IMG/VR virus record: IMGVR_UViG_3300025133_009629
Coordinates: 1-23,719 of that record
DNA length: 23,719 nt
Reading direction: 5' to 3' (one strand)
Origin: a virus
The position numbers and the translations under genes were made by a program. Under the pieces are notes generated by a model. That model saw only the letters and a list, made by a program, of their open reading frames with translations. It was not told where the DNA came from and searched no databases. Of the stretch, positions 1 through 18,211 are shown piece by piece (positions within the stretch are counted from its first letter, which is position 1; each line of letters opens with the position of its first letter).

Positions 1-2648
1 TACTTGATGAAGTAACTGAAGAAGAACTCTCTAATCTTGACGATATTCTTCATAACTTAGACCCAAAAGACTTATCATTCAACAACATCTTTGGCGATAG
101 AATGAGAATAGCTCAGCCAATGATAACCAAAGACCAAAATCTTGAAAGCCTAAAGAAACTCCTAACCGATTCAGGATACGAACCAGACTTCCAAACAGGA
201 TTGGCAACTTATTATACTATGACTTATGATTTGGGTCAGGGTAGTGCCACTCCCGGCAAACGCGAAACAAAAGTTATAGGTCGCGATCTAAAAGATCATC
301 TCCTAGACAAAAATGGCGAGGCAGCGAGATTATATACAGATACCGATGAAAGCTTTGAGAAAAGAAAAAAGGAGATACGAAAGAAGCAAGTTAAAATAGG
401 CAAGCTTCTTCAAAAAGGCGCTCGCCTTTACGATAATGCTCGTGCAGCATGGACAGCTTCAGATACAATCAATCCCGAAGACTTTGGTATGAGTCCGGAG
501 GGTTGGGCAGATGAGGATATTGGAGAAAAAACTGGCAAGTACAGAGCCGCCGCCGAAGAAATGGCTGCTAAATCTAGAAAGGAACACCAAAAACTATTTA
601 ATGTTTTTCAGGCGGATACTTCAAGAGCAGTTTCTGCCCTCAACATATACCAAAGATTAGCCGATTGGTGGAACAAGAAGTCAGCTTTTTATCGCGAGAA
701 CCCAGAAGATGCTGGTGAAACAAGCAGTGACTATTCTATCATATATACTCGCCATCCAATTGATGTAATGCGAATGTCTGACTTTGAGAATATTACAAGT
801 TGCCATTCACCACCTTCACGACCAAGTAACTCAGGTAATTCATATTACAAGTGTGCTGTTGCCGAAGCCCATGGCCACGGTCCAGTAGCATATGTGGTTC
901 GCAACGAAGATCTAAACGAGCTAATATCAAAATATGGCTTGGAAGACGCCGACTACCAAGACTTATTGGACGCAATAGAAGAAAACGATGAAGAACTCTT
1001 CGCAGACTCAGTACGCGATGTTGGCGATATTACGCCAATCTCTCGTGTGAGAATAAAGAAGTTTGTTAATCCTACTCTTGAGATATCTTTAGGAGTGCCT
1101 AGCACAATGGTTTACGGAAAGAAATTTCCAGAACTCTACTCCAACATAAGCGACTTTACAAAAGAGAAACAAGAGAAAGAACTCACAAAGATAAAAGATT
1201 CCACCGAATCTGACAACCCATTTGATAATGCCTTTGATAAAGATGGAAGACTTAATCTCGCCAATTGGGAACGCTTTGGCGGTTCTTACCAAGATGCTGG
1301 AGATTATCCCGGCGAGGCTATGACCAAATATTTGGGATATAAAACCACAGGCGGCCCTCATTACGATGACACCACAGAAGACAACCTAGGTGTTCTAGGC
1401 ACACAAGAAGAATGGCAGCAAGAAGTTAATGAAATACGAGAACGCTTTAATCGTGGATACCAAGCAGCCCGTATTGAGAGCGCAACCGTAGAAGATGATG
1501 GCGCGGGTGAATATTATATTGACATACTAGCCGTTTTACGAATAGTTTTCCCCGAAGACGAACTAAGTACGTCAGCTTTCCAAGATGCCACCAGAAATGC
1601 GATTAATTCCATTCCGGATATGCTAAGCGAATATGGATTTGAGGAATTTGGCGAACACCTACACTATACCACAGTTAACGATCGTTCACAAGCTTGGGAT
1701 GACATTATACGAAGAATACAGGACGAAGAGAAACAACAAGTAGTAATAGAAATACCAATTGACATCGAAGCAGTTAGCCCCGAACAAGTTGGTTATGCTT
1801 ACAATCCAGATAGTTTTAGAGAAATAGCAGAAGCAATTGACTCTCTTGATGATAAAGCTGATGCTATTGAAGAAATGGCAAAAAGTCATCTAAAACGCGA
1901 AGGTGTGATGAAGGGTAGTGAGCTTATCAAATTTGCGCGCGCAATAGAAGATGAACACTGGTATGAGTGGGACTATGATGTAGATGATGACTGGAATCCT
2001 GCAAGTATCGAAGTAGAAACAAAGACTTACGTAAATTTTGAGGATTTAGCGCAAAAGCTACCTATTGCTCTAGAACGCGCAAACTCCGACCAATCAGGCG
2101 AAGTATATATTATGTTTGCCGGTGATCCTCTCGCCCTAGCCTCACAAGCTAGCGATGGCGACGGAAACTTTAAATGGTGGGAGGTTCGCTCACCGGAGTT
2201 TGAAGCCGATACGCTAGGAGGCTTTAAAGACTTGGATGAAGTCAAAGATTATGTCCGAGATCAACTTACCAAACTAATCTTACGCCCCAAAGGAACTAAA
2301 ATCCCAAAAGGATTACAATCAAGCCACGACTATCTTGTAGCTGTATCTATGCTAATGCGGGATGCAGTTGGCGGCAAAGAAGGCGAGTTTATGTTTCCTA
2401 ATCGTGAGATGTGGGTAAGCGGGCCGGATAGTGATGATGAATATAAAATGATGTTTAGAATATTACTGGACGATGATGACAGCGATGAGGTTGTCAAAAG
2501 CGCCCACGAGATTATGGCAGAGGTAGATGATGAAGATATGCTAAAAGACATCTTTAGAACAGCATTTGCGAAGGTAGGTAAGATATCGGGCTCAAAAGCA
2601 ACCGTAACGGAAGTAAGGCAGTACTTTAAAAAATTTGATTTCTTTTAA
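1..2648 (+). CDS. Very large phage protein of unknown function, 5' end outside the window
   Basis: The frame is open from base 3 and reads plausible acidic protein sequence (LDEVTEEELSNLDD and onward) into the ATG at 102, so the gene starts before the window; 881 residues are visible. I do not recognise a catalytic domain. A compact region around residues 215-330, counted from the ATG at 102, holds the patterns TRHPIDVMRMSDF, SCHSP, a KCAVAEAHGHGPVAYVVR segment and ISRVRIKKF, and looks like the conserved core of a recurrent but uncharacterised protein of marine phages; that similarity is from memory. The rest is hydrophilic, rich in Asp, Glu and Lys, with a strongly acidic C-terminal third. 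Its TAA overlaps the stop codon of the convergent clpX by four bases. A structural or scaffold role is only a guess based on size and on the virion-like genes nearby. Confidence 0.85.
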   Translation, partial: LDEVTEEELSNLDDILHNLDPKDLSFNNIFGDRMRIAQPMITKDQNLESLKKLLTDSGYEPDFQTGLATYYTMTYDLGQGSATPGKRETKVIGRDLKDHLLDKNGEAARLYTDTDESFEKRKKEIRKKQVKIGKLLQKGARLYDNARAAWTASDTINPEDFGMSPEGWADEDIGEKTGKYRAAAEEMAAKSRKEHQKLFNVFQADTSRAVSALNIYQRLADWWNKKSAFYRENPEDAGETSSDYSIIYTRHPIDVMRMSDFENITSCHSPPSRPSNSGNSYYKCAVAEAHGHGPVAYVVRNEDLNELISKYGLEDADYQDLLDAIEENDEELFADSVRDVGDITPISRVRIKKFVNPTLEISLGVPSTMVYGKKFPELYSNISDFTKEKQEKELTKIKDSTESDNPFDNAFDKDGRLNLANWERFGGSYQDAGDYPGEAMTKYLGYKTTGGPHYDDTTEDNLGVLGTQEEWQQEVNEIRERFNRGYQAARIESATVEDDGAGEYYIDILAVLRIVFPEDELSTSAFQDATRNAINSIPDMLSEYGFEEFGEHLHYTTVNDRSQAWDDIIRRIQDEEKQQVVIEIPIDIEAVSPEQVGYAYNPDSFREIAEAIDSLDDKADAIEEMAKSHLKREGVMKGSELIKFARAIEDEHWYEWDYDVDDDWNPASIEVETKTYVNFEDLAQKLPIALERANSDQSGEVYIMFAGDPLALASQASDGDGNFKWWEVRSPEFEADTLGGFKDLDEVKDYVRDQLTKLILRPKGTKIPKGLQSSHDYLVAVSMLMRDAVGGKEGEFMFPNREMWVSGPDSDDEYKMMFRILLDDDDSDEVVKSAHEIMAEVDDEDMLKDIFRTAFAKVGKISGSKATVTEVRQYFKKFDFF

Positions 2649-3925
2649 TCTTCTTCTTTGGTTTCTTTAAAAACATATACTGGTAACTTATTGTTAATAA
2701 TACATTCTTTATCAACAATGACTTTAGAAATCTTTTTATAAGTTGGAGTATCATACATAGGTTCTAGTAGTATTTTTTCTAAAATGCGTCGGAGTCCGCG
2801 GGCGCCAGTGTTAGATATAAGTGCCTTTTTAGCAATCTCTGCTAGGGCGCCTTTTTCAATTGACAGTTCAACGCTGTCCATACTTAATAAATTTTTGTAT
2901 TGACTTATAAGCGAGTCTTTTGGCTCTATTAAAATTCTTATAAGCATTTCTTCGGATAACTGGTGCAGACAAGTAAATATTGGCAAACGGCCGATTAATT
3001 CCGGAATTAGTCCAAATTCCGCAAGATCCTGTGAGTTAATATTAGACAACATCTCATTAAATTCGATTTCTTGTTTGTTTTTAGTGCTATTCTTAAAACC
3101 CAAGGTTTGTTTTGTATTCAATCTTTCTTTCACAATCTCGTTAAGTCCAACAAAGGCACCTCCGCAGATAAACAAAATATTTGTTGTGTCTAGCGATATC
3201 GTTTCTTTGTTTGGCCCTTTGACATTTAGTTTCTTTGGTACATCCACAATGTTTCCCTCAATCATTTTCAATAAGGCTTGTTGAACTCCTTCACCGGAGA
3301 CATCGCGAGTCATTCCCATGCGGCCCTTTTTCAGAGAAATTTTATCGATTTCATCGATGTATACGATTCCGCGCTGGGCCTTTCGTATCGAACCGCCTGC
3401 GTTTTCTAATAATCTAGAAAGAATGTTTTCGACGTCTTCTCCTACGTATCCAGCCTCGGTTAGATTCGTCGCATCTGCTGTTGTAAATGGTACATCTAAT
3501 ATGTTTGACAGGGTTTCCGCTAGCAATGTTTTGCCGGTGCCGGTTGGGCCTGCCAAAAGAATATTACTTTTTTTAATGTTTGTTTTCCCCGGGCTCATAT
3601 TATTGAGATTCAATATTCGTTTGTAGTGATTATAAACTGCAACAGACAATATTTTCTTTGCTGATTCTTGGCCGATTACTGTTTCATCTAACGTTTTCTT
3701 GATTTGCCTAGGCTCTGGTAAATCTTTGAATCTCTCATTTTCTATTTTTTCTTGTATTGTATCGTTTTTGCTTTTTTCGTTTTCTAAAACGTCATAGCAT
3801 AGATAAACACATTCATTACATATATTACTAGTAATGCTCACGCCGGTGATAATTCGATCTGCTTCTTTTCTGGTTTTTCCGCAAAAGGAGCAATTAAAAT
3901 TTTTATTTTTTATATTATCACTCAT
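2645..3925 (-). CDS. clpX: ClpX, AAA+ unfoldase of the ClpXP protease
   Basis: A full-length ClpX of 426 residues, close to the 424 of E. coli. The N-terminal zinc domain has Cys12, Cys15, Cys36 and Cys39. Walker A is GPTGTGKT (126-133) and Walker B is IVYIDEID (187-194). The pore-1 loop GYVG is at 159-162, the pore-2 region VSGEGVQQ follows, an arginine-finger region ELIGRLP is present and the sensor-2 motif GARGLRR is intact. The ClpP-docking loop carries LGF at 275-277, an accepted variant of IGF. ClpX unfolds tagged proteins, including those ending in the ssrA tag, and feeds them to ClpP; no clpP is visible here, so host ClpP is the likely partner. The loop that reads RKH in bacterial ClpX aligns without gaps to VKG (235-237). 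The gene is transcribed against its neighbours; its TAA overlaps the stop of the preceding convergent gene. An AT-rich box at 3945-3955 may be its promoter. Confidence 0.97.
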   Translation of the reverse strand: MSDNIKNKNFNCSFCGKTRKEADRIITGVSITSNICNECVYLCYDVLENEKSKNDTIQEKIENERFKDLPEPRQIKKTLDETVIGQESAKKILSVAVYNHYKRILNLNNMSPGKTNIKKSNILLAGPTGTGKTLLAETLSNILDVPFTTADATNLTEAGYVGEDVENILSRLLENAGGSIRKAQRGIVYIDEIDKISLKKGRMGMTRDVSGEGVQQALLKMIEGNIVDVPKKLNVKGPNKETISLDTTNILFICGGAFVGLNEIVKERLNTKQTLGFKNSTKNKQEIEFNEMLSNINSQDLAEFGLIPELIGRLPIFTCLHQLSEEMLIRILIEPKDSLISQYKNLLSMDSVELSIEKGALAEIAKKALISNTGARGLRRILEKILLEPMYDTPTYKKISKVIVDKECIINNKLPVYVFKETKEED

Positions 3926-3944
3926 AATACTTTATATCCATCTA

Positions 3945-3955
3945 AAATAAATAGT
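3945..3955 (-). promoter_or_regulatory. Candidate promoter box upstream of clpX
   Basis: Read on the minus strand this is ACTATTTATTT, ending 19 bases before the clpX ATG. Nearly the same 11-mer, ACTATTTATTA, lies 24-25 bases before two other gene starts (9776-9786 and 18290-18300). Its position and recurrence suggest a phage promoter element, but the sequence is AT-rich and no transcription data support it. Confidence 0.35.
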
Positions 3956-3991
3956 TCTAATTAATATAACGATTAATTAAAAAGGATTGCG

Positions 3992-4192
3992 ATGAAGAAT
4001 ATAATTTATCTAGATGAAGTTAGAATAAGAAAATCTATATTAGAGACAGAAGAGGCGATTGAAAGAGTAAAAATGTTAGTATTTGTAGGAATTGAAGTTC
4101 CGGAAGATGTTATGCCTAGGTTAGAAAAAATACTTTCTATGCTTGAACAAGACTTAATTGATTTATTTGAAAATGATATAAATTATGATTAG
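3992..4192 (+). CDS. Small acidic helical protein, unknown function
   Basis: 66 residues starting at ATG with an AGGA ribosome-binding site nine bases upstream. The sequence is predicted largely helical by its heptad-like spacing of Leu, Ile and Val (for example EEAIERVKMLVFVGIEV, then PRLEKILSMLEQDLIDLF) and could form a short coiled coil. It has no Cys, no signal peptide and no recognisable domain. It is divergent from clpX across a 66-base AT-rich spacer, so the two may share a regulatory region. Reality as a gene rests on the ribosome-binding site, codon use like its neighbours and compact placement. Confidence 0.7.
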   Translation: MKNIIYLDEVRIRKSILETEEAIERVKMLVFVGIEVPEDVMPRLEKILSMLEQDLIDLFENDINYD

Positions 4193-4213
4193 CTTTTAAC
4201 TAATTATTGTATT

Positions 4214-4417
4214 GTGAAACAAACTACTATTTTTTTACAAGTACCCGCTAGCGCTAAAAACGTTTTATCAAGCAACAAGACGACTAATTTTCCAATAAGC
4301 AATAAAACTATATTTCGTGAACCAGAAGGAAAAAAACATTTGCAAAGAGTGTTGGAAGCCTTAATTCAAGCATATGGAAAACCGGCAGTAATTAAAGCCT
4401 TGCAAAAAGTCGATTGA
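4214..4417 (+). CDS. Small basic protein, unknown function, GTG start
   Basis: 67 residues beginning with GTG; no clear Shine-Dalgarno sequence precedes it, so the start is uncertain. The N-terminal half is polar and Ser/Asn/Thr-rich, the C-terminal half is a basic amphipathic helix (KKHLQRVLEALIQAYGKPAVIKALQKVD without the last residues resembling any named domain). The TGA stop abuts the TAA of the convergent membrane-protein gene with no spacer. It could be a small DNA- or protein-binding factor, but nothing specific can be assigned. Confidence 0.6.
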   Translation: MKQTTIFLQVPASAKNVLSSNKTTNFPISNKTIFREPEGKKHLQRVLEALIQAYGKPAVIKALQKVD

Positions 4418-4753
4418 TTATTTCCAATATACCTGAATAGCTATTATTACAACTGATAAAACTAAACAAATCAAGGTTTTATTTATCAGAATGCTCTCTC
4501 TAAGAAAAAAGTAAGTCAATATCCCAAAAACAACGTTGGAAACTCCAAAACCAATCAGCTTTGACGTCCATAGATAACCAGTATCTGCTACTATGCTTTT
4601 AATCGCATACCAAAAGCATATGCCCATGGGCACCGCAAATATCAAATTTGATAATATTGCTTTATCTTCCCACCATTTCCAGACAAATTGAGAATTGAAT
4701 TGAAACCATGCTAATATATTTCCAACTATAAAAAATAATATTCCTTTATGCAT
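4418..4753 (-). CDS. Four-helix membrane protein, DMT/SMR-sized
   Basis: 111 residues with four clear hydrophobic segments: about residues 4-22 (ILFFIVGNILAWFQF), 33-53 (ILSNLIFAVPMGICFWYAI), 63-86 (TSKLIGFGVSNVVFGILTYFF) and 90-110 (KTLICLVLSVVIIAIQVYW). Length and four-helix layout match small multidrug-resistance and other half-size transporters of the drug/metabolite superfamily, but TM1 lacks the membrane-embedded Glu that drives EmrE-type transport, so drug efflux is not supported. I recall similar small membrane proteins recurring in marine phage genomes without assigned function. A modest AAGG lies upstream of the ATG. It is one of only three minus-strand genes here and converges directly on the preceding small gene, which suggests independent acquisition or regulation. 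Confidence 0.8.
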   Translation of the reverse strand: MHKGILFFIVGNILAWFQFNSQFVWKWWEDKAILSNLIFAVPMGICFWYAIKSIVADTGYLWTSKLIGFGVSNVVFGILTYFFLRESILINKTLICLVLSVVIIAIQVYWK

Positions 4754-4798
4754 ATACTAATTACCTTATATAAAATTATATATTATGGAGTATATATT

Positions 4799-4960
4799 AT
4801 GAAAATTACTAAGTCAAGGCTAAAACAGCTTATAAGTGAAGAAATAAAAAATATTTTATACGAGTGACCGGAAAGCGAAGAGGAGTATCCTCTAGAACTA
4901 GAAGACGTGCCGGATGCCGATGAATTAAAAGAAGAGTCACAAGACGAAAAAAACATTTAA
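4799..4960 (+). pseudogene. Short ORF interrupted by an in-frame UGA: nonsense-broken gene or readthrough
   Basis: From ATG 4799, preceded by TGGAG at a good distance, the frame encodes 22 residues starting MKITKSRLKQLISEE and ending NILYE, then TGA at 4865-4867. The same frame continues for 30 acidic residues (PESEEEYPLELEDVPDADEL and so on) to TAA at 4958-4960. The N-terminal amphipathic helix is a motif I recall from the start of many marine phage virion proteins, and an acidic tail commonly follows it, so both halves look like one original gene. TGA serves as a normal stop elsewhere in the window (4415, 6743, 20626, 23145), which argues against a changed genetic code. Possibilities are a recent nonsense mutation, programmed readthrough, or a genuine 22-residue peptide. 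Confidence 0.55.
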
Positions 4961-5022
4961 ATAATTTAATATTATAATATATTTTTACGTTCAAGCCGTT
5001 TAAATAACATCGGAGGTTAATT

Positions 5023-5232
5023 ATGGCAACAGTTAAAGAACTACAAGCACAATTGAACAAACTAGAGCAGTCGGTCGGTCGTTTGCAAACGTCAAATTCA
5101 GATTTGCGCGACGAAATCGCAGTGATTAAAAGCAATTACACGCTTTTAGTCAAAGAAATGACAACGAGGTTGGAACTGATCCACAATAGGTTTCAGGGTA
5201 CTGGGAATCAACAAGCTTCTGGTGGGGCGTAG
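5023..5232 (+). CDS. Small coiled-coil protein
   Basis: 69 residues with a very strong ribosome-binding site (CGGAGGT six to seven bases before ATG), suggesting high expression. Residues 4-57 form an obvious coiled coil (LQAQLNKLEQSVGRLQTSN, then LRDEIAVIKSNYTLLVKEM), with hydrophobic residues at heptad positions, followed by a flexible Gly/Gln tail. The shape resembles small phage structural or assembly proteins, but no family can be named. A TATAAT hexamer at 4973-4978 lies about 45 bases upstream without a convincing -35. An inverted repeat, TTAAATC-AA-GATTTAA (5235-5250), sits directly after the stop. Confidence 0.8.
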   Translation: MATVKELQAQLNKLEQSVGRLQTSNSDLRDEIAVIKSNYTLLVKEMTTRLELIHNRFQGTGNQQASGGA

Positions 5233-5286
5233 TCTTAAATCAAGATTTAAACGCTTAATCAAACAAATAAGGAAATATTTTTTATT

Positions 5287-5514
5287 ATGAATAATCAAAA
5301 CGCCCAACAACAGATAAATATCGATTTATCTACTGCTAGCAGCATAGAGTGTGATGAATGTCAACACACAGAATTTGTTCCAGCATTCATTATTAAAAAG
5401 GTATCCGCTCTAATGTCTCCCACTGGTGCTGAGACTATGGTGCCGGTGCAAGTATTTAAATGTGGAAAGTGTAACCACATTAATGAGCTATTCTTGCAAG
5501 GAGTAACTAATTAA
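5287..5514 (+). CDS. Zinc-ribbon-like small protein
   Basis: 75 residues with two CxxC pairs: CDEC in the first third and CGKC near the C-terminus, with a His directly after the second pair (CNHIN). The spacing, with a hydrophobic beta-like stretch between (AFIIKKVSALMSPTGAE), matches a zinc-ribbon fold. I recall similar short proteins in marine myophages, with an unassigned, possibly virion role. The ribosome-binding site is AAGGAAA at a rather long distance from ATG. The following gene begins four bases after the TAA, so the two are probably co-translated. Confidence 0.8.
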   Translation: MNNQNAQQQINIDLSTASSIECDECQHTEFVPAFIIKKVSALMSPTGAETMVPVQVFKCGKCNHINELFLQGVTN

Positions 5515-5517
5515 TGT

Positions 5518-6330
5518 ATGGATTCAAATAATTGGAATAATTGGAAAATCTTTCTTGATGAACTTGCAGATCCGCAGTTTGTCGACACTTCTTCTTTAAT
5601 ATCAAAAAAAACATTAGCTCCAGAACTCTGGGAAAGAGATAGTTTACATCCGGATGTGCTAGCTGCAGCCCTGCGCGTGGCCAGAGACTTTTTTGACAGT
5701 TTAAATCTTTTAAACAGTCCCATTATAATCGACATTATACTCACTGGCTCGCTAGCTAGCTATAATTGGTCCGAAATGTCAGATTTCGATCTTCATATCT
5801 TAATAGATTTTAATAAATTGGAACAAGAAAATAGAGAATTGCTAGAAGATTATTTTAAAGAAAAAACTAGATCATGGAACTCATTACATGACATATTACT
5901 CAAAGGGTATGAAGTAGAACTTTATATCCAAGACAGCAATGAATCGCATATTTCTAACGGTGTTTATTCTTTAATGGAAAATCGTTGGATTAAAAGGCCC
6001 GTAAACTATAAACTAGACATTGATTACAAGATAGTTAAAGAAAAGGCCGCGAAACTAATGGAAGAAGTTGACAATGCATATGATCTATACGCAGAAAAAG
6101 ATTTTGCGGGCGCTAAAGAATTATCTGAGATCATAATGCAAAAAATTAAACGATATCGTAAGGCCGGGCTGGAAACTGGTGGTATATATTCTATAGAAAA
6201 CTTAGTTTTTAAAACTTTAAGACGTAATGAATATCTTAAAAAACTCTCCAGCATAAAAACGCTAGCATACGATTCTTTAATGTCTTTAAACGAACGCGAT
6301 AAAAAGTATATTACTTATAAAAACGACTAA
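5518..6330 (+). CDS. Pol-beta-fold nucleotidyltransferase
   Basis: 270 residues. The signature of the minimal nucleotidyltransferase superfamily is clear: LTGSLASYNWSEMSDFDLHI, with Gly77-Ser78 in the helix N-terminus and Asp89 and Asp91 as the metal-binding pair, and a third acidic residue Glu134 in YEVELYI. Such enzymes transfer a nucleotide to protein, RNA or small-molecule hydroxyls, and include toxin-antitoxin MNT-type enzymes and tRNA nucleotidyltransferases; which target applies here cannot be told. The C-terminal 100 residues are helical and Lys-rich, a plausible substrate-binding part. The gene follows the zinc-ribbon protein with a three-base gap and has no strong site of its own, so translation is likely coupled. 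I recall similar proteins in marine phages. Confidence 0.85.
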   Translation: MDSNNWNNWKIFLDELADPQFVDTSSLISKKTLAPELWERDSLHPDVLAAALRVARDFFDSLNLLNSPIIIDIILTGSLASYNWSEMSDFDLHILIDFNKLEQENRELLEDYFKEKTRSWNSLHDILLKGYEVELYIQDSNESHISNGVYSLMENRWIKRPVNYKLDIDYKIVKEKAAKLMEEVDNAYDLYAEKDFAGAKELSEIIMQKIKRYRKAGLETGGIYSIENLVFKTLRRNEYLKKLSSIKTLAYDSLMSLNERDKKYITYKND

Positions 6331-6352
6331 TTAATCTTATAAGGAGCAAAAT

Positions 6353-7409: not shown

Positions 7410-7448
7410 AATAAGTAAATAAAGGTGTTAAAAGAATTTATTCCATAG

Positions 7449-7460
7449 TTATTATATAGG
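7449..7460 (+). promoter_or_regulatory. Candidate promoter box before the MopE/VWA lipoprotein
   Basis: TTATTATATAGG lies nine bases before the GTG start; its last bases merge with the AGGGA ribosome-binding site. The identical 12-mer occurs on the minus strand at 18228-18239, upstream of the other secreted lipoprotein gene. Shared regulation of two exported proteins is possible; chance in AT-rich DNA is the alternative. Confidence 0.3.
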
Positions 7461-7468
7461 GAATAAAT

Positions 7469-9601
7469 GTGTTCTACCGTATAAAAAATAACATCTCATT
7501 ACTATTAATGCTAGTTATAGTTTCTAGTTGCAGTCATAAAAACGACGGAAATAATCAAGACACTCAACAAACCAATACGCCGGATGCGAACATAATTTTA
7601 GACGTCGCAGATGACACAAATGAAGAAGATTCCTCTGATAGTGAGAATATAGAAGAAATAGATACTTATTCTATTTGGACGGATCCGTGCATAGAGTGCG
7701 CGTGGTATTTCTGCGGTAGCTTGGATGCTGTTTGGCAAAAACAAATTTGTATTAATAATTGTGATGACCCTCCCACTGTAATATACGAAGGCATATGCGA
7801 AGAACATCTAGAATGTAATCCGGCGCAATTAGTCTTAGAAGCAAATATTCCTTGCACGACAGAAGACGGATATCCCGGGACAAAAGATAAGCTTTGTAAC
7901 AAAGGTCAGATACAATATACAAATTGTAAATCTGACTGCTCGGAAGAAGTGTGCGATGATATCGACAACGATTGCGATGGCGACATTGATGAAAACGTAA
8001 AAAACGCATGCGGGGACTGTGGGGACGTACCTGAAGAGGTGTGTGATTATATCGACAACGATTGTGATGGAGTTATAGATAACGGCGTCACGAATGCGTG
8101 TGGAACTTGCGGGAAGGCGCCGGAAGAGATCTGCAACGGCGTTGATGATGATTGTGATGGAGATATCGACGAAGGACAACTAAATGCATGCGGAAAGTGC
8201 GGGCCACTCGATGAAGAAATTTGTGATGGTCTCGATAATGATTGTAACGGGCTTATTGATGAAGATTTAATTGGCGAGTGTACCACAGATTGTGAGACAA
8301 ACTTGCAGTATTGTGTTGCCGGTCAGTGGATTTGCACTGCGAAACAACCCCAACCTGAAGTTTGCAACGGTCTAGACGATGACTGCGATGGAAAAGCCGA
8401 TGAAGGTTTAGATTGTCTTTGCACTATTAATGATATTGGTGTTTTAATGCCATGTAAAGAAGCTCCTTTAGTTTGTGGAGAGGGGTATAAAACATGCGAG
8501 TGCGTAGACCCAAATGATCCAACTTGTGCTGAATTGCAGTTAAGCGAATGTTTGGCAGTTTGTCATTGGCTCCCGCAAACTATTCCTGCAGGTTCGACTT
8601 GCGATAAATATCTTGGAGAAATCAAGCCAGAAGAGTGCAATAATCATGATGATAATTGTAATGATTTGATTGATGAAGGCTTAGTCGCAAATTGTTATAG
8701 CGGCCCTCCAGAAACATTATTAATTGGCATATGTTTGCCCGGGGAGATGATGTGCCTAGATGGCTCCTGGGGGAATTATGATGACAATGAAGTTTTCATT
8801 AAAAAACTCTGCTTAGGAGAAATAACACCACAACCAGAAGATATATGCAATGGTACAGATACAAACTGTGATGGTAAAATTGACGAAGATAAAGTATTAG
8901 AGCCCACAGATATTCTTTTTATTATTGATTTGTCCGGATCCATGGCCGAGGAAATTAATGCAGTCACTACGGCTCTCAATCAATTTGCCACACATTATAG
9001 TGATTCTGATGTTGTTAAATGGGGCCTTGTTTTCACTGCATCTTGGTCAGGATCCGGTGAACAAGTCGTATTGGCTACAGATTTAGTAGACTTCGAAACA
9101 TTTATGACTATTTTCCAAAGTACAGGGTTTACACTTTATGGGGCCGACGAGCAAAATTATGATGCAATATATATGGCAATACATAATTTACTTGGCGCAG
9201 TTAGCTTGCCGCATGAATTAGTTGATTTAAGCTGGTTCGGTGGTTGGAGTTCTAGTACGACGGAATCAAGCCCGCCAAAGAATGATTGGAATATAAGCTG
9301 GAGAGATGATGCAAAACATGTAATCATATTATTTTCTGATGAAGCTGGTCAGACGTATCTTACCCCCAATATAACCGAAGCTATGCTGGTTAATATGATT
9401 AACGCTGCAGATGAATTAGCGGTTTATGCCTTTACTCAAAATTGGCTAATCGACAATGGCACTGCTGATAATTACGTCGCTCTTACAGAAGCCGGAATGA
9501 AAGGTAAAGCTTATTATTTGACGATGAGTGCGGTAGAAATGTATAACAATCTTTTGGAAATTCTTGATGAAACCGCTTGCGGTGGAACTAACAATCCTTA
9601 A
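7469..9601 (+). CDS. Lipoprotein with seven MopE-type Cys/Asp repeats and a von Willebrand A domain
   Basis: 710 residues, GTG start with AGGGA five to six bases upstream. Residues 1-21 are a lipoprotein signal (ISLLLMLVIVSSC, lipid on Cys21), so the mature protein should be membrane-anchored and exposed. A Cys-rich central region holds seven copies of the pattern E(V/I)CNGxDDDCDGxxDE, the first four in tandem about 30 residues apart, the others spread to about residue 475; this matches the metal-binding motif described in MopE-related proteins and common in Myxococcota. The last 230 residues form a von Willebrand A domain with the MIDAS motif DLSGS near residue 487 (FIIDLSGSM). A Ca-stabilised or disulphide-rich stalk presenting an adhesive domain is a reasonable inference. 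It is unusual in a phage and could be host-derived surface cargo. A 37-residue membrane peptide is coupled downstream. Confidence 0.9.
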   Translation: MFYRIKNNISLLLMLVIVSSCSHKNDGNNQDTQQTNTPDANIILDVADDTNEEDSSDSENIEEIDTYSIWTDPCIECAWYFCGSLDAVWQKQICINNCDDPPTVIYEGICEEHLECNPAQLVLEANIPCTTEDGYPGTKDKLCNKGQIQYTNCKSDCSEEVCDDIDNDCDGDIDENVKNACGDCGDVPEEVCDYIDNDCDGVIDNGVTNACGTCGKAPEEICNGVDDDCDGDIDEGQLNACGKCGPLDEEICDGLDNDCNGLIDEDLIGECTTDCETNLQYCVAGQWICTAKQPQPEVCNGLDDDCDGKADEGLDCLCTINDIGVLMPCKEAPLVCGEGYKTCECVDPNDPTCAELQLSECLAVCHWLPQTIPAGSTCDKYLGEIKPEECNNHDDNCNDLIDEGLVANCYSGPPETLLIGICLPGEMMCLDGSWGNYDDNEVFIKKLCLGEITPQPEDICNGTDTNCDGKIDEDKVLEPTDILFIIDLSGSMAEEINAVTTALNQFATHYSDSDVVKWGLVFTASWSGSGEQVVLATDLVDFETFMTIFQSTGFTLYGADEQNYDAIYMAIHNLLGAVSLPHELVDLSWFGGWSSSTTESSPPKNDWNISWRDDAKHVIILFSDEAGQTYLTPNITEAMLVNMINAADELAVYAFTQNWLIDNGTADNYVALTEAGMKGKAYYLTMSAVEMYNNLLEILDETACGGTNNP
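7943..8265 (+). repeat. Four tandem coding repeats of about 90 bp (MopE-type motif)
   Basis: Within the lipoprotein gene, units beginning near 7943, 8032, 8122 and 8213 each encode a motif of the type EEVCDDIDNDCDGDID followed by a NACGxCG linker in the first three. Three further diverged copies start near 8356, 8630 and 8836. DNA similarity between units is moderate, so this is an old protein-level repeat rather than a recent tandem duplication. Confidence 0.85.
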
Positions 9602-9714
9602 TGGGTCTTTTGATTTGCATATTTGGTATTGAAAAAGTCTTGTTTACTCTTTGTACACTATACTTAATTGGTCTATATTACTATATTAAAAAGCATATTG
9701 GCCGATTAGACTAA
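9601..9714 (+). CDS. 37-residue single-span membrane peptide
   Basis: The ATG overlaps the TAA of the lipoprotein gene (TAATG), the coupling arrangement used by other gene pairs here. The ORF encodes one hydrophobic helix (MGLLICIFGIEKVLFTLCTL, then YLIGLYYYI) ending in a positively charged tail (KKHIGRLD), which fits a membrane-spanning peptide with the tail in the cytoplasm. There is no separate ribosome-binding site. It might assist or regulate the lipoprotein, or act as a small holin-like or accessory peptide; nothing in the sequence decides. Short length leaves some chance that it is not a gene. Confidence 0.5.
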   Translation: MGLLICIFGIEKVLFTLCTLYLIGLYYYIKKHIGRLD

Positions 9715-9775
9715 TCACATACATTTTTAGTTCTCTCTTAATCATCTAATATTTCTTACTATTCGTAAATTAATT

Positions 9776-9786
9776 ACTATTTATTA
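9776..9786 (+). promoter_or_regulatory. Candidate promoter box before the 9.8-15 kb operon
   Basis: ACTATTTATTA ends 24 bases before the ATG at 9811, in the 96-base AT-rich spacer after the membrane peptide. The exact 11-mer, within a longer match AATTACTATTTATTA, recurs at the same distance before the PIN-PhoH gene. It would be placed correctly to start the long co-directional transcript that follows. Confidence 0.4.
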
Positions 9787-9810
9787 TAATTAAATCAGGG
9801 AGATTAGCAT

Positions 9811-10821
9811 ATGCAAGTTAAAAATGAAGTGCTTAAGCGTACTATAGTTCAAGAAACTATCATGACTTTGGTAGACCATGGTCTTATGAAAGAAGCACGG
9901 GATATGCATCTCAAGAACAAAGAATATTTAGATGAAGCATGGCTTAGAGACCTTATCGACAAGATCTCCGGGAAGCAACGCGACGATGGCGCCAAAGCGA
10001 AATGGCAAGATATTGAGCAAACTTTGGGCGATGATGAAAAAGAAGAAGATAGACTTGAGAAAATGGTTGCTAAGATTTCCAAAGGTCTTGTAGACCGCGG
10101 ACAATATGGCAAGAAAGAGGCAGCAGAAATAGCGCAGAAATTCCGCGCTAGTGCTCCCGGTCTAGATAGAAATACATATCAAATTATAGGCGATATTCTA
10201 TATGATATTGGCGATAATCCTTCTGTTGTTAAACAGGTTGTTGGCGCAGCTGCAAAAGAAGGCGATTTGGACACTCACGACTTTCTTGGTCAACCCGGCG
10301 CTAGGCCGGAGACCAAAGGTGCAGGAGAAGCAGGCGCCGAGAAGAAAAAACCAGCGACGGTCTCCAATACTGTCAAAGATTTGGCGGGTGTACTAAGAGA
10401 TCCGGCAGAAAGAGCACTTCTACTAAAAGGATTGTATAGACTAATGATCAATAAATCAGTTTTGGGTGCTATCAAAGCATTGCCCGATGGACAAGGCGAT
10501 GAAGTGAAAAATCTATTAGTACAAATGATGGAAATGGATCCAAAAGCACTAGCAGATGTACGTGCAAAAGTTGGCGATGAATTTGAAGCCGAAGCCTTGG
10601 ATACAAAATACCTACACAAAGGATCTGGCCGCGCATCTTCTTATGGAGCACAATTCGCGGCAAGACAGAGCGGCATGCAAAAGCAAACAAGCGCGGAGAA
10701 AGCCGCCGGTTTGAAGTTGAAAGAATCTAAAAATTCCAATTTCCGGGCGAAGGCAGAAAGAGCCATTATTCTAGAAATTTTAGGCTTATATATCGAAAGA
10801 AAAACAAACAAAATTATCTAA
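9811..10821 (+). CDS. Helical, charged protein of unknown function, first gene of operon
   Basis: 336 residues with an SD-like GGGAG upstream of ATG. The protein is almost entirely alpha-helical and highly charged; it opens with a helical repeat-like segment (ETIMTLVDHGLMKEARDMHL) and ends with another hydrophobic-basic helix (RAIILEILGLYIERK). Between lie a Gly/Ala/Lys linker (about residues 163-185) and a further helical region. No catalytic motif, Cys cluster or signal is seen. It is followed after one base by the metallopeptidase gene, so the two are probably co-translated. Position at the head of a structural-looking operon makes an assembly or internal-head role plausible, without proof. 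Confidence 0.8.
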   Translation: MQVKNEVLKRTIVQETIMTLVDHGLMKEARDMHLKNKEYLDEAWLRDLIDKISGKQRDDGAKAKWQDIEQTLGDDEKEEDRLEKMVAKISKGLVDRGQYGKKEAAEIAQKFRASAPGLDRNTYQIIGDILYDIGDNPSVVKQVVGAAAKEGDLDTHDFLGQPGARPETKGAGEAGAEKKKPATVSNTVKDLAGVLRDPAERALLLKGLYRLMINKSVLGAIKALPDGQGDEVKNLLVQMMEMDPKALADVRAKVGDEFEAEALDTKYLHKGSGRASSYGAQFAARQSGMQKQTSAEKAAGLKLKESKNSNFRAKAERAIILEILGLYIERKTNKII

Positions 10822-10822
10822 T

Positions 10823-11572
10823 ATGGACAATATTAACACCTATGCTAATGATTTAATTGATTTTTTTCATCAAAAGTATAAGTTGCAAAACAAGCCAAAT
10901 GCAGATTTTGTACAAAATATAGAAAATAGTCAGAATCCTTTAGGAAAAACCGCTTATTATGATCCATCTCAAGAGGCCATTACTATTTTTATTTCCGGAA
11001 GGCATATTAAGGACTGTTTGAGATCTCTAGCTCATGAATTAGTCCATCATTGGCAAAACGAGCGCGGAGATTTAGATAATTGTGGACCAACAGTTCCGGG
11101 TTATGCTCAAAAAGACGATCATATGCGCGGATTGGAGCGACAAGCCTATGAAATGGGCAATATGTGCTTCAGAGATTGGGAAGATAACATAAAGACAACA
11201 AATAAACAGCTTTATGAAACTATTTATAAAGCGAAAGAAATAAAAGGAGATAATATAATGTCTGATAAGCAATGGCGCCAAGGCGAACTTAATACAATGT
11301 TAATGGAAAAGTGGGGTTTTACACCAAAAGAAAATTCTTTTCTTACAGAAGGGAAAGGGACTTATGATTTGTCGAATGCTGATTATGCCACCGGGCAATT
11401 AGAAGAAGCACCTGAAGAACTAGAAGAAGGTGACGAAGAAGAAGTTCTAGAAGCGCATCCGCAGTCCCCTGCTGCAAGATTAAAGGTTTTAGACGAAAAA
11501 GAAGAGAGCGAAGAGACAAAGCTTCGTGAGGCCATCAAAAAAGTCATTGAAGAATTAACAAAAGAGAAATAA
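10823..11572 (+). CDS. Zinc metallopeptidase fused in frame to an acidic C-terminal domain
   Basis: 249 residues. The N-terminal half carries a zinc-peptidase motif, LAHELVHHWQ, with His71, Glu72 and His75, and downstream Glu105 or Glu110 (GLERQAYEMGN) as candidate third ligand, the layout of gluzincin-type peptidases. The C-terminal half is different: a motif ELNTMLMEKWGF near residues 154-165, found from memory in marine phage proteins, then a very acidic, helical stretch ending KLREAIKKVIEELTKEK. The start has no ribosome-binding site and follows the previous TAA by one base, whereas a strong one precedes the internal Met146. The gene may therefore make both a protease-acidic protein and a separate 104-residue acidic protein, like nested protease/scaffold genes of other phages. 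Confidence 0.85.
   Translation: MDNINTYANDLIDFFHQKYKLQNKPNADFVQNIENSQNPLGKTAYYDPSQEAITIFISGRHIKDCLRSLAHELVHHWQNERGDLDNCGPTVPGYAQKDDHMRGLERQAYEMGNMCFRDWEDNIKTTNKQLYETIYKAKEIKGDNIMSDKQWRQGELNTMLMEKWGFTPKENSFLTEGKGTYDLSNADYATGQLEEAPEELEEGDEEEVLEAHPQSPAARLKVLDEKEESEETKLREAIKKVIEELTKEK
11243..11250 (+). promoter_or_regulatory. Strong internal ribosome-binding site in the metallopeptidase gene
   Basis: AAAGGAGA lies seven bases before an in-frame ATG at 11258 (Met146, MSDKQWRQGELN). It is stronger than the signal at the gene's own start. Translation from here would give a 104-residue protein consisting of the KWGF motif and acidic helix only. Confidence 0.6.
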
Positions 11573-11573
11573 A

Positions 11574-11825
11574 ATGAAATTAAATCTCAATGATCTCACA
11601 AGAAGGTTTTTATTAGGTGAATCTGTCAATAAACCGTCAGTGCGCGCTTACGTTGAATCTGTTCTTCGTATTATAGAGGAAGTGCGTCCAAAATCCCAAC
11701 GAGAAAACAGACAATTCAGCGTTGCAAGGCAACATCTCCAGGAAATTAAACGTTTAAATAGAAAACTCGAAGAAAAAATTACACTTCTAGAAGAGCAAGT
11801 CAAAATATTAGAAGAAGGAAAGTAA
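11574..11825 (+). CDS. Small coiled-coil protein
   Basis: 83 residues, starting one base after the metallopeptidase stop. It has an N-terminal amphipathic segment (MKLNLNDLTRRFLLGES) and, from about residue 52, a long coiled coil (LQEIKRLNRKLEEKITLLEE). No other motif is present. It lies between the metallopeptidase and the ligase-like fusion and has its own GAAGGAAAG near the end that serves the next gene. The gene order and co-translation point to a shared assembly function, but the protein belongs to no family I can name. Confidence 0.75.
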   Translation: MKLNLNDLTRRFLLGESVNKPSVRAYVESVLRIIEEVRPKSQRENRQFSVARQHLQEIKRLNRKLEEKITLLEEQVKILEEGK

Positions 11826-11826
11826 A

Positions 11827-14193
11827 ATGGGCGGCGTAGCAGGACATTTAGCACATTTATACGATAATCGTGATCTAACTTACAACAAAATGGCTGAAAT
11901 TCTCCAAAAAGCGGCAACTGGCGAGCTTATTGGTACCGAAAAGACCGATGGATACAACATTTATCTCGGCTTTGTTGATGGTAAGGCACGTGCGGCGCGT
12001 AATAAGGGTGACATGTCCCGCGGCGGCATGACAATGCAAGATTTAACCAATAGAACATTTCAAGGCGGCGAAAATGCTAAAAAAGCTTATGTTACAGCGT
12101 TTAAAGCTTATGAAAAAGCGCTTGATTCCCTCGCGCCGGAAGAAAAAGAGAAAATATTCGGTGTTGGAGGTGAAATCTTTTATAATACCGAAATCCAAGG
12201 GCCAGTAGCTCCGAATGTTGTGAATTATGACGAAAACGTCCTTAATATACATAGAATGGGCCATAAACGCTATAATAAAGACACAAATAGACTTGAAGTT
12301 GTCGATGCGGACGAAGAATCTGCTTTTTTAGATAGCACAACCGATCGATTCGAACAAGCAACACATGGTGAGTCCTTCAACGTGCGAAGAACTGCCTATT
12401 TAAAACTAAATCAAATAACAGACGAAGTTACTCTCAATACAGTACTAAATAAGATCACAGCTACTGGATATGAAGGTGATTTAACAATCGACCAATATTT
12501 AGAAAACAATATTCGGCCCATGATCGATAAAAAATTTGCAAATTTAGATGCATTAAAAAGAGAACAATTAGTAGATCGTGTTTTAAAGAGAGATGGATCA
12601 GTCTCATTAACTCAGATTTCGAAAGGCTTGCCACAGCAGGAAAGAGCAGAATTATCTCAATATGTAAAAAATTCGAAATTCATAATTAAAAAATTGATTG
12701 AGCCAATTGAATCTGCTATTCATGATTTTGCTGTTGAGTTGTTAAGAGGGCTTAAGAGCGCTTATGTGCTAGATAATTCTAAAGAGGTTGGGCGGCTAAA
12801 AAAAGAAGTTGAAGACGCAATTAATGCTATTAAATCCTATGAAGGGCCTGAAAAGGAAACAGCACAAGATATTCTGCGGCAACAACTTATAAAACTAAAG
12901 CATCATGATAACATCGATACAGTAGTTGAAGGCTTTGCTTTCCAATACGATGGGCAGATGTATAAGTTTACCGGAAATTTCGCTCCAATGAACCAATTAT
13001 TGGGCTTATTTCGCTATGGTCGAGGTAATATACCAAAAATGGTAAAAGAATCGATTCTAGAGCAAAACGAAGGCGAATATGATGAAGTTTTACCCTTTAA
13101 TGAGACGAAGATTGGCCTAGTGCCAATGTCCGCCAAGCCCTACCACGCTGGTCATCATATGTTAATCCAATTGGCAGCAATTAGTGAGATTACAGATGAA
13201 ATTCAAGAACTAGAGTTGCCAGTTAACGACATTGTTGGAGTTTTCATCTCTTTTTCAGGTAGAGGCGTACGCAAAATCAAAGATCCAACAGACTCTAGAA
13301 CAATAAATCAAGGAGCCAGAAGAATTGAAGACCCGAAGCCTGGAGAAACTCCGATATTTGGATCTGATATGGAACATATTTGGCAAAACATACTTAAACC
13401 TAATTTAGAATTATCTGAAAAAGTAAAGTTAATATCTCCAGCGGACGGAGCGCACGAATCTCCGGTTAGAAACATACACGACATCTGCGGAGCATTAAAG
13501 GAAGCTTTTGACGCTCAACAAGAAACTTTCGAAGTTCCCCATTTGGGCATCAGCGCGCGAGTTAACCAAACAGTAATTAATATTTATTCTGATAGCGAGG
13601 ATATAGTGCAAAATTACTCAGATGACATAATGGAAGAATATGGAGAACTTTGGAAATCGGAGTCATTGCCGTCAATACGACCGATCGGAGTTCCAAGAGA
13701 GAAAACAGTAGAAATTAGCGGCACAGCAATGAGAGATTTTTTATGCAAGGGAGATATTGAACAATTCTCCGACATGTTGCCTCCTTTGCCGCAAGACAAA
13801 AAAGAAGAACTTGCAAATATTCTTATAAAAAGTATTGAATGTGGAATACCTCTTAAAAGACGCGAATTGCAGGAGGGCACCCATCATTTTATGGGTATTT
13901 TTCGTGGGTTAGTTGATGAAGTGTTAAAAGAAATCAGCAAAGCGGGGAAGAAAAAAATATCTAAAAAAATTCCCATTTTAAAAGATGAAGGATATCCTCA
14001 TAAACAAGCAATTGCAATTGCTCATTCTATGGAAAAAAAGAAAAAACTAGAAGAAGATGACTTGGAAGAAACTTCGATGAGCGGCGGTTCAATGGCGTTT
14101 GCTGCTGGTGTTCCTAAGCGCAGAAAAAGAAATTTAAAAGAAGACGAAGTTAACGAAGTGATAAACTATTTATTACAGAAACTTGGGGTGTAA
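11827..14193 (+). CDS. Ligase-like adenylyltransferase fused to an HxGH nucleotidyltransferase
   Basis: 788 residues with at least three parts. Residues about 30-400 show the motifs of covalent nucleotidyltransferases (RNA/DNA ligase superfamily): motif I EKTDGYN with the nucleotide-binding Lys39, a downstream ARAARNKGD segment, motif III-like GGEIFYN near 116, motif IV-like EGFAF (Glu368) and motif V-like YKFTGNF (Lys380). Residues about 425-650 contain an HxGH cytidylyl/adenylyltransferase fold: PYHAGHHM (His440, His443) and ISGTAMR (630-636), as in NMN and phosphopantetheine adenylyltransferases. A C-terminal tail has KQAIAIAHSMEKKKK and a Gly/Ser linker seen in phage structural proteins. 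Both enzyme modules use ATP and transfer AMP-type groups, so a joint end-repair, NAD or RNA-modification role is possible. The substrate is unknown. Confidence 0.85.
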   Translation: MGGVAGHLAHLYDNRDLTYNKMAEILQKAATGELIGTEKTDGYNIYLGFVDGKARAARNKGDMSRGGMTMQDLTNRTFQGGENAKKAYVTAFKAYEKALDSLAPEEKEKIFGVGGEIFYNTEIQGPVAPNVVNYDENVLNIHRMGHKRYNKDTNRLEVVDADEESAFLDSTTDRFEQATHGESFNVRRTAYLKLNQITDEVTLNTVLNKITATGYEGDLTIDQYLENNIRPMIDKKFANLDALKREQLVDRVLKRDGSVSLTQISKGLPQQERAELSQYVKNSKFIIKKLIEPIESAIHDFAVELLRGLKSAYVLDNSKEVGRLKKEVEDAINAIKSYEGPEKETAQDILRQQLIKLKHHDNIDTVVEGFAFQYDGQMYKFTGNFAPMNQLLGLFRYGRGNIPKMVKESILEQNEGEYDEVLPFNETKIGLVPMSAKPYHAGHHMLIQLAAISEITDEIQELELPVNDIVGVFISFSGRGVRKIKDPTDSRTINQGARRIEDPKPGETPIFGSDMEHIWQNILKPNLELSEKVKLISPADGAHESPVRNIHDICGALKEAFDAQQETFEVPHLGISARVNQTVINIYSDSEDIVQNYSDDIMEEYGELWKSESLPSIRPIGVPREKTVEISGTAMRDFLCKGDIEQFSDMLPPLPQDKKEELANILIKSIECGIPLKRRELQEGTHHFMGIFRGLVDEVLKEISKAGKKKISKKIPILKDEGYPHKQAIAIAHSMEKKKKLEEDDLEETSMSGGSMAFAAGVPKRRKRNLKEDEVNEVINYLLQKLGV

Positions 14194-14196
14194 CAT

Positions 14197-14979
14197 ATGA
14201 TTGATCGCGACGAATTATTAGCTGAAATGAAGGAAGAACAACGGTTACGTAAAACTTTACGTAATCTTTTAGAATTATATTTTAAAGAAAAAGAAGATAA
14301 AACCCTTCTAGAAGAAAATCGATTTCGCAAAATTATTCGTTCTTTGATTAAAGAGGCCACTTCTGCAGACGTCCCTAATGAACAACCGCAGCGCTCTACT
14401 GGTATAAATGTTTTAGAGGGTTTGTTAAAAAATATTATTGCAATTATAGAAGAAGACTATAAAGCTTTAACAACTTCTTCGGAGCAAAGAGAATCATTTC
14501 GCTCTCACATTCTTAATGGTGTTGAAAATTCTTTAAGACCCGCTGAAGTAGCGGTTACGGCCGGGGATGATGAACCTGAAGCTGATATACCACTAGAAGA
14601 GCCTGAAACTGATATAGCACTTGAAGAAGCTGAAGAAGATATAGAAATGAGCATCGATATTGATAAAGAAAAAGATAAATTTATTCCAGTACGCGATCGT
14701 GATATGGAACCGGATCCTGAAGAGGCAGAAGAACCAGATACTTTCCAGCCAATTGGCGGTATGAATGTAACAGGACGTAACTTTGCTTCAATTACTTTTA
14801 ATAAAATTGAGAATCAAATATTAGATGCTTATGAAAGCTTAGGAGATAAAGAAGACAGGGTGCTTTTTGAAGACTATTTGTTAACTAATCTTAAGCTATA
14901 CTTTGATAGGTTTGAAGAAGAATTGCAGCCAACACTGCCAGAACCAGAATCACCTGATTACGATCAGGTTAAAGTATAA
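14197..14979 (+). CDS. Acidic protein with N-terminal amphipathic helices, unknown function
   Basis: 260 residues, starting three bases after the preceding stop with GGGGTG upstream. The N-terminal 60 residues hold two similar basic amphipathic helices (RLRKTLRNLLELYFKEKE and RFRKIIRSLIKEAT). A disordered, very acidic middle follows, including repeats of the type EPEADIPLEEPETDIALEE, and then a folded C-terminal domain from about residue 185 (GRNFASITFNKIENQILDAY) rich in aromatic residues. No enzyme motif is seen. Such amphipathic-plus-acidic organisation is common in phage scaffold or internal head proteins, an inference only. It ends 55 bases before the helix-turn-helix-like gene. Confidence 0.78.
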   Translation: MIDRDELLAEMKEEQRLRKTLRNLLELYFKEKEDKTLLEENRFRKIIRSLIKEATSADVPNEQPQRSTGINVLEGLLKNIIAIIEEDYKALTTSSEQRESFRSHILNGVENSLRPAEVAVTAGDDEPEADIPLEEPETDIALEEAEEDIEMSIDIDKEKDKFIPVRDRDMEPDPEEAEEPDTFQPIGGMNVTGRNFASITFNKIENQILDAYESLGDKEDRVLFEDYLLTNLKLYFDRFEEELQPTLPEPESPDYDQVKV

Positions 14980-15034
14980 AGACACTTATAATAATATTAT
15001 ATCACATTTTTCTCGAATATTTAAACTTGATAAC

Positions 15035-15418
15035 ATGACTTGGACTAATAAAAAGAAAAGCTTGACATCTGTCGAAAATTATAGTATAATCAAAAAACTT
15101 GATAAAGAAGCTAAAATCAATAAAGCTTTTCTTAATACTATTAACAATATTTCTTTAGAAGACTTAATAGCTATTAAACTAGAATTATCAACAAGATATT
15201 TATGTGGGAAATTCTATGGCATGCCATTATGGAAAATAACTAGGCATACAGTCGTCGATGCACTACTTAAAACTGGGCTTAGTATAGCTAAAACTAAGAA
15301 AGAAGCAGCTAGGTTCTTAGGAATAGATTATATGGACTTTAATAAATATATTAAAAAATATAATACTATTTCATATTTTGAAAATGGGGGCGAAACGGTT
15401 TCGACAAAGAAAGAATAA
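15035..15418 (+). CDS. Small helix-turn-helix-like protein whose 3' end overlaps the tmRNA
   Basis: 127 residues from ATG 15035; a longer reading from 14903 would overlap the preceding gene and is not supported. Residues about 40-115 are helical (SLEDLIAIKLELSTRYLCGK; TRHTVVDALLKTGLSIAKT) and end in KKEAARFLGIDYMDFNKYIKKY, which resembles a Fis-type or homeodomain-like helix-turn-helix. I recall similar short proteins in marine phages and T4-like viruses. There is no good ribosome-binding site. The last 10 codons and the stop (15386-15418) are also the 5' part of the tmRNA, and a perfect sigma-70 promoter lies inside codons 10-19. A DNA-binding regulator is likely but unproven. Confidence 0.75.
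   Translation: MTWTNKKKSLTSVENYSIIKKLDKEAKINKAFLNTINNISLEDLIAIKLELSTRYLCGKFYGMPLWKITRHTVVDALLKTGLSIAKTKKEAARFLGIDYMDFNKYIKKYNTISYFENGGETVSTKKE
15062..15090 (+). promoter_or_regulatory. Consensus sigma-70 promoter upstream of the tmRNA
   Basis: TTGACA (15062-15067), a 17-base spacer and TATAAT (15085-15090): both hexamers match the consensus exactly with optimal spacing. Transcription would start near 15097, about 290 bases before the mature tmRNA 5' end, so a precursor would have to be cut by host RNase P. It sits inside the coding region of the helix-turn-helix-like gene and would also serve the tubulin-like gene. Confidence 0.7.
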
Positions 15419-15699
15419 AATATACGTGCAAGACTGTGTGAGTAACACAGTAAAAATGCTCAATTTTTTATAAACGCCAACGATAACGTTGAGTTTGATT
15501 ACGCACTAGCTGCGTAATCTGGAGTTCCTAGCGCTTCATTAAAGAAGCTAGGCAAGTTTTCTTGTTTTTCGGGATACAAAACAAGTGGTACGCGTATGCA
15601 GGGTTTGAGTTTGTCAGAGTTCAAATAACTGACTAATCTTGTGAATGACGTTGTTTTTGATAGTCTTTGGACCCGGGTTCGACTCCCGGCGCCTCCACC
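15386..15699 (+). ncRNA. ssrA: Transfer-messenger RNA (tmRNA, one-piece)
   Basis: tmRNA rescues stalled ribosomes and adds a degradation tag. The 5' end GGGGGCGAAACGG pairs with 3' CGCCTCC (15690-15696) to form a 7-bp acceptor stem that keeps the G3-U70 pair read by alanyl-tRNA synthetase; A15697 is the discriminator. The T arm is CCGGG-TTCGACT-CCCGG (15673-15689). A resume codon GCC at 15476 begins an encoded tag ANDNVEFDYALAA, ending in TAA at 15515-15517. Hairpins consistent with PK1 (CTGTGT/ACACAG, 15434-15449), the tag-proximal stem (CCTAGC/GCTAGG), and later pseudoknots (CTTGTTTT/AAAACAAG, 15561-15585; GTCAG/CTGAC, 15613-15633) are present. The gene encodes CC then T, not CCA, so the terminal A must be added after processing. 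It lies between the helix-turn-helix-like and tubulin-like genes. Confidence 0.97.
15476..15517 (+). other. tmRNA tag reading frame
   Basis: The frame from resume codon GCC encodes ANDNVEFDYALAA and then TAA. With the alanine brought by the tmRNA itself the tag is AANDNVEFDYALAA. The C-terminal LAA is what ClpX recognises, and the AND start matches the segment bound by the SspB adaptor in E. coli. It is longer than the 11-residue E. coli tag. Confidence 0.93.
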
Positions 15700-15750
15700 T
15701 AACATTAATAAAAATTCTAACTAATTAAGTTAAAGGAGAAAGTTGTAATC

Positions 15751-18190: not shown

Positions 18191-18211
18191 GTTTTTTCCC
18201 TCCTTTTGCTT

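Follow-up and report, generated by a model that had tools for sequence, protein, structure and literature searches.

The window considered here, a linear virus fragment of 23,719 bases analysed over its whole length, carries genes for both a tmRNA (ssrA) and the protein unfoldase ClpX, and this raises the question of whether a phage directs its own pathway for tagging and destroying proteins or whether two separate tools happen to share a fragment. The former was proposed in the first-pass annotation, which had placed both genes within 13 kb; they indeed lie about 11.5 kb apart, on opposite strands. To our knowledge there are reports of tmRNAs as well as of Clp proteins in phages, and little is known of their roles. 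ClpP was not found in the 23,719 bases, but in a fragment such as this, missing parts tell little.

ClpX is encoded at full length (426 aa) on the minus strand (positions 2645-3925) and was characterised by Pfam, a PDB sequence search, a tree, a structural model and a fold search, all of which agree with the initial assignment. The zf-C4_ClpX, AAA_2 and ClpB_D2-small domains each score above the Pfam cut-off, the N-terminal C4 zinc domain (PF06689) covering residues 12-48 with 45 bits. The nearest solved relatives are bacterial ClpX proteins, with ClpX 8e91 as the top PDB sequence match (E 6e-128), and the AlphaFold model (mean pLDDT 78.6) matches the fold of chains of E. coli ClpXP, for example 6wrf. 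ClpX of the window and of E. coli have the same domain order, are 50-54% identical in the AAA+ part and share their catalytic, pore-1 and docking motifs; the Walker A and B, GYVG pore-1, arginine finger and sensor motifs (including sensor 2) are all kept. The [LIV]GF loop for ClpP (IGF loop, residues 275-277) is retained as the tripeptide LGF (positions 3095-3103, minus strand), and in E. coli ClpX the substitution I268L weakens ClpP docking (PMC7112951). Judged from these motifs, the protein is most likely a complete unfoldase that would dock on ClpP. The adjoining gene encodes an 848-aa protein with no assigned function (positions 102-2648, plus strand), a homologue of which is also found near clpX in the relative G002.

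Unlike E. coli ClpX, the window protein has an altered RKH loop and a partly altered pore-2 loop. It is these two loops of ClpX that grip the ssrA tag. The RKH-loop segment KKLNVKGP (residues 231-238; positions 3212-3235, minus strand) differs from E. coli by P224K, G226L, G227N, R228V and H230G, and the pore-2 loop (residues 199-209; positions 3299-3331, minus strand) carries S197G and I198M while keeping the equivalents of T199 and V202, just as pore-1 keeps those of Y153 and V154. Of 80 bacterial ClpX sequences 77 have the RKH motif, as do 77 of 90 viral ones; its position reads VKG in the window and KPK and RSK in the two closest homologues (L002 of contig G001 and L046 of G030, respectively), which sets the window ClpX outside the E. 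coli-type ssrA readers as defined by this motif. Near-invariant positions, taken as those at least 90% constant in other ClpX sequences, number 130, and the window departs from them at 10, L002 at 13 and L046 at 16. Among the 13 of these positions that belong to the pore-2 and RKH loops the departures number 6, 8 and 9, so that the loops account for 23 of all 39 departures (hypergeometric p 5e-5, 8e-7 and 3e-7 for three related proteins, whose tests are not independent). A quick tree groups the three proteins into a single clade (SH-aLRT 99); its closest neighbours, L003 and L004, retain the RKH motif.

The consequences of such changes are described for E. coli ClpX, where R228A raises the KM for ssrA substrates 50-fold or more and moves preference toward an N-degron, H230A raises this KM to roughly 140-240 uM, and pore-2 changes also raise it strongly; human ClpX, which has leucine at the T199 and H230 positions, shows no degradation of ssrA substrates (PMC7652416). 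Altered loops on a kept motor point to a ClpXP that would have been turned to different substrates, leaving the tag mainly to host proteases. As the equivalents of T199 and V202 are kept, the loss of tag recognition by the window ClpX is advanced only as a prediction. The ClpX proteins of PA5oct and SCTP-2 (L085 and L130) are also devoid of the RKH motif, and a ClpS adaptor gene is annotated near clpX in both, which makes them possible further cases of a redirected ClpX.

The tmRNA gene is of the one-piece type (positions 15386-15699, plus strand) and was confirmed by ARAGORN, by the Rfam model RF00023 and by alignment with 22 relatives. The RF00023 match (15386-15700) spans model positions 1-374 and scores 113.2 bits (E 7e-44; curated score 47). 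The acceptor stem pairs G1-C72, G2-C71 and G3-U70, and the alanine acceptor identity, a 5' GGGG with U70 at the 3' side, is found in 23 of the 23 aligned tmRNA genes; the 3' end reads ...CCACCT, and the terminal A of CCA is hence absent from the DNA. The tag reading frame (GCC...TAA, positions 15476-15517, plus strand; ARAGORN and the 23-gene alignment) encodes ANDNVEFDYALAA followed by a stop, and thereby has the hydrophobic ALAA end that had been noticed initially. Tag residues 1, 2, 4, 5, 6, 10, 12 and 13 are invariant across the window and its 22 relatives, and codon changes within the close group are mostly synonymous; by this alignment the tag residues are clearly under constraint. Tags in the wider family vary, with ANDNVEFDYALAA, ANNNNNFESVRLAA, ANNNLHFEQRLAA and others, and in 76 loci they end in LAA, VAA or IAA save for one odd ARAGORN parse. 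A degenerate pattern of the close-group tag had no match in 84,980 bacteria and archaea (one genome per species), which argues that the phage tmRNA is not a recent host copy. The gene is working-looking, and its charging, SmpB binding and tagging in cells are predicted from sequence. As for its expression, the T4-type late promoter TATAAATA showed no enrichment, and a perfect sigma-70 consensus, TTGACA-17-TATAAT (positions 15062-15090, plus strand; about 0.04 expected in the window), lies inside the l171 gene about 300 bases upstream of the tmRNA; it is not conserved at the same place in relatives and therefore no timing of expression is claimed.

The window belongs to an uncultivated phage family represented by IMG/VR contigs, the longest of those tested measuring 185-203 kb, for which a PIN-PhoH protein (positions 18326-19639, plus strand) and a 249-aa HExxH-containing protein (positions 10823-11572, plus strand) served as markers. 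Among 50,697 deposited phage records there was no close relative, the best PhoH match being 40% identical, and the l171 protein had no match at all. The conserved gene order near the tmRNA runs through the 249-aa, 83-aa, 788-aa and 260-aa proteins, l171 and the tmRNA, sometimes followed by a tubulin-like gene, to a trypsin-like gene on the other strand and PhoH. The tmRNA is present in the same position in 50 of 85 partly redundant loci spanning l171 to PhoH, and the 35 loci without it mostly form a single subclade; as read from these loci, the gene has long been part of the phage family as a whole. The tmRNA-less subclade (L163, L174, L184 and kin) either lost its tmRNA or never had one, and there l171 carries a stop codon of its own and differs in its tail. 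Other members of the neighbourhood include the tubulin/FtsZ-like gene, which directly follows the tmRNA in the window (15751-16824) and occurs in part of the relatives only (G064, G089 and a few others), and the trypsin-like protease gene (17417-18265, minus strand), whose product has a lipoprotein-like start as judged by eye and which is kept between tmRNA and PhoH in close relatives. A 710-aa protein (7469-9601) with MopE-type metal-binding repeats and, again by eye, a lipoprotein-like start is conserved family-wide and is an uncommon protein for a phage.

A clear ClpX was found in four members of the family (the window, G001, G030 and G017), and a probable fifth is represented by a 35-residue fragment at the contig edge of G130; tmRNA is present in all of these. 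Seven contigs of the family that measure 185-203 kb have no ClpX, and five of the seven carry tmRNA; the case for the absence of ClpX rests on these long contigs. Its absence from the PhoH contig set was dropped as evidence because the majority of contigs in that set stop short of the clpX position, and most family contigs are fragments in which ClpX may be missed. On the long contigs, ClpX is a rare addition in the family. The association between the two genes within the family is not significant (tmRNA in 5 of 5 contigs with ClpX versus 5 of 9 long contigs without, p 0.22) because tmRNA is so common there. In the window, G001 and G030, clpX occupies the same place, past a nucleotidyltransferase gene, and the tmRNA is encoded on the other strand. 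G096, which is more distantly related and covers this place, has no clpX; on the G017 contig a distance of about 150 kb separates clpX from the tmRNA. G001 was the sole match to the nucleotidyltransferase query.

A search for the remaining components, which the first-pass annotation had recommended, was rewarded for ClpP and not for SmpB. The nearest relative, G001, has a ClpP of its own (60% identity to the E. coli protein) besides tmRNA and ClpX, and G017 also carries all three, so that ClpP accompanies two of the four clear ClpX genes; in G002, whose clpX lies on the next branch of the tree, clpP directly follows clpX. As the neighbours of ClpP are the same genes in G001 and G002, the phage from which the window derives probably encodes a ClpP beyond the left window edge. 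No SmpB was found in any family contig searched. The ClpP cluster (G001 49231-55923, G002 53137-58799) also contains a zinc-knuckle-like protein, an AAA ATPase that is MoxR-like by eye and a 400-aa protein, and in G002 clpX is itself part of this conserved cluster.

The co-occurrence of tmRNA and ClpX was also surveyed in phages at large. A tmRNA above the cut-off is present in 6 of 50 ClpX-bearing IMG/VR records and in 1 of 13 such records of a second, overlapping set, and a published survey found tmRNA in 2.3% of phage genomes (PMC9004378); no rates were drawn from a scan of viral contigs with a tmRNA pattern, as it included many contigs of isolate genomes, which are likely prophages. Among named huge phages with ClpX, tmRNA is present in 4 of 7 lineages (phage G, Lak, LR756511 and LR756504, with the Lak-B2 and C1 matches borderline at 47-49 bits) versus 0 of 13 large phages without ClpX (Fisher p 0.007), but since the 13 controls were hand-picked and smaller on average and the Rfam model excludes two-piece tmRNAs, genome size may explain this association. 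All eight named ClpX-bearing huge-phage records searched have a ClpP-family match, and Lak-B2 (L456) and LR756504 (L457) encode SmpB alongside tmRNA, ClpX and ClpP. With complete gene sets in two other huge-phage lineages, the general idea of a phage tag-and-degrade route remains viable. Several GenBank 'phage' ClpX matches were left out of the comparison owing to their bacterial-looking sequence, for example the tig-clpP-clpX arrangement in MD-2021a.

The pairing itself is not new, contrary to what the first-pass annotation implied, as it already exists in Sinorhizobium phage AP-J-162 (PMC11242549) and in Bacillus phage G (its tmRNA in PMC4131195), but no described system built on the pair was found, and a literature search returned no paper treating tmRNA, SmpB, ClpX and ClpP together as one phage system. 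The published genome of AP-J-162 resembles the window in having both tmRNA and clpX, but it measures 471.5 kb, its clpX lies beside IF-3 and topoisomerase genes, and the two genes were not put forward as a single system (PMC11242549). Phage G likewise has a tmRNA and ClpX, with clpP adjacent, but its ClpX retains the RKH motif, its ARAGORN tag frame is another and its gene order is unrelated. Lak phages and LR756504 share tmRNA, ClpX and ClpP with the window's family and, as they also encode SmpB, have a fuller tagging side than anything in that family; huge phages with tmRNA and SmpB were described by Al-Shayeb et al. 2020 (PMC7162821). Methylophilales phage Melnitz and the pelagimyophages are marine phages in which a phage tmRNA is common but not universal, and for which phage-directed tagging of host proteins was proposed; they differ in their two-piece permuted tmRNA and glutamine riboswitch, and the paper makes no mention of Clp (PMC9004378).

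Overall, we lean towards the reading that the window holds two largely independent tools, a family tmRNA with a host-read tag and a substrate-shifted phage ClpX. They are probably separate because the tmRNA is old in the family, whereas ClpX is a rare addition with changed tag-reading loops. This reading is founded on the gene identities, their conservation and distribution, the loop changes and the ClpP of relatives. In the course of events that it predicts, which presumes expression and activity of both genes and the use of host SmpB, the phage tmRNA would act during infection with host alanyl-tRNA synthetase, EF-Tu and SmpB to free ribosomes that have stalled on broken messages, and would add an -LAA tag read by host proteases. 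The phage ClpX would dock on ClpP, either the phage's own, which at least two ClpX-carrying relatives encode elsewhere, or that of the host. It would not be the main reader of the phage tag; since the loops that grip ssrA are remodelled, it would most likely feed ClpP other substrates, which may be regulatory proteins of the host or the phage. Against this stands the presence of a tmRNA in every family member found to have ClpX, the four clear cases as well as the probable fragment. Moreover, the kept equivalents of T199, V202, Y153 and V154 may leave some ssrA binding, and binding could be restored by an adaptor or by co-evolution of the tag with the loop.

The original proposal, that the phage tmRNA tags incomplete proteins which phage ClpX and phage or host ClpP then destroy under partial phage control, draws on the intact parts, on their presence together with ClpP in G001 and G017, on the excess of tmRNA among ClpX-bearing huge phages and on the full sets, SmpB included, of Lak and LR756504. 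It is nevertheless rather unlikely here, as the degron-reading loops are changed, the genes occupy separate strands and loci, tmRNA occurs in the family mostly without ClpX and their association there is not significant, while the huge-phage figures suffer from the smaller controls and the two-piece tmRNAs outside the model. A dedicated pathway in the window's phage is thus possible and not favoured, two tools fitting better, and a coupled route may exist in the G017 phage, which has an intact RKH motif, tmRNA and ClpP. Less probable still is a ClpX with no role in proteolysis, acting as a remodeller for replication or virion assembly or as a rival for host ClpP that spares the substrates of host ClpXP: the lost RKH motif beside kept ATPase motifs and docking loop would suit an unfoldase or a ClpP decoy, and no protease gene adjoins clpX in the window, but with ClpP in relatives, directly after clpX in G002, a protease partner is the simpler reading. 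Very improbable, finally, is a tmRNA left over from integration at host ssrA, or one that is decaying and has no function. Prophages integrating at ssrA are known to pick up pieces of it (discussed in PMC9004378) and one family subclade has no tmRNA, but the gene is full length, strongly scoring and syntenic across the family, and its conserved tag is of a class found in no genome of the searched species collection.

A further feature of the locus, newly found here, is that l171, an ORF with an HTH-like C-terminal part (positions 15035-15418, plus strand; a weak, sub-threshold HTH match), runs into the tmRNA gene, its TAA stop at 15416-15418 coinciding with tmRNA nucleotides 31-33. The overlap is common to 16 distinct family sequences including the window, in all of which l171 is in frame with tmRNA base 1 and stops at tmRNA nucleotide 33 or 39; in other members, G001 and G030 among them, the l171 stop precedes the tmRNA. 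Because l171 ends inside the tmRNA, processing of the latter should yield an l171 mRNA without a stop codon: an RNase P cut of the putative joint transcript should leave a non-stop message whose end coincides with a codon boundary. This line of reasoning has a precedent in Carsonella, where smpB runs into ssrA (PMC4131195). It may be speculated, with considerable doubt, that l171 and the tmRNA constitute a self-sensing switch. RNase P would cut the shared transcript at the codon boundary, and the product of the stopless l171 message would be tagged by the same released tmRNA and then destroyed, so that l171 would build up only under saturated trans-translation and would report the state of host ribosomes, an accumulation that resembles that of ArfA in E. 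coli.

For the family as a whole, a tmRNA with an intact tag that has long been kept, mostly in phages without ClpX, argues that the phage gains from tagging by host proteases. The natural ClpX with changed tag loops and an unchanged motor lends itself readily to testing how the specificity of unfoldases evolves, and the conserved overlap of l171 with the tmRNA could let a phage protein report on ribosome rescue.
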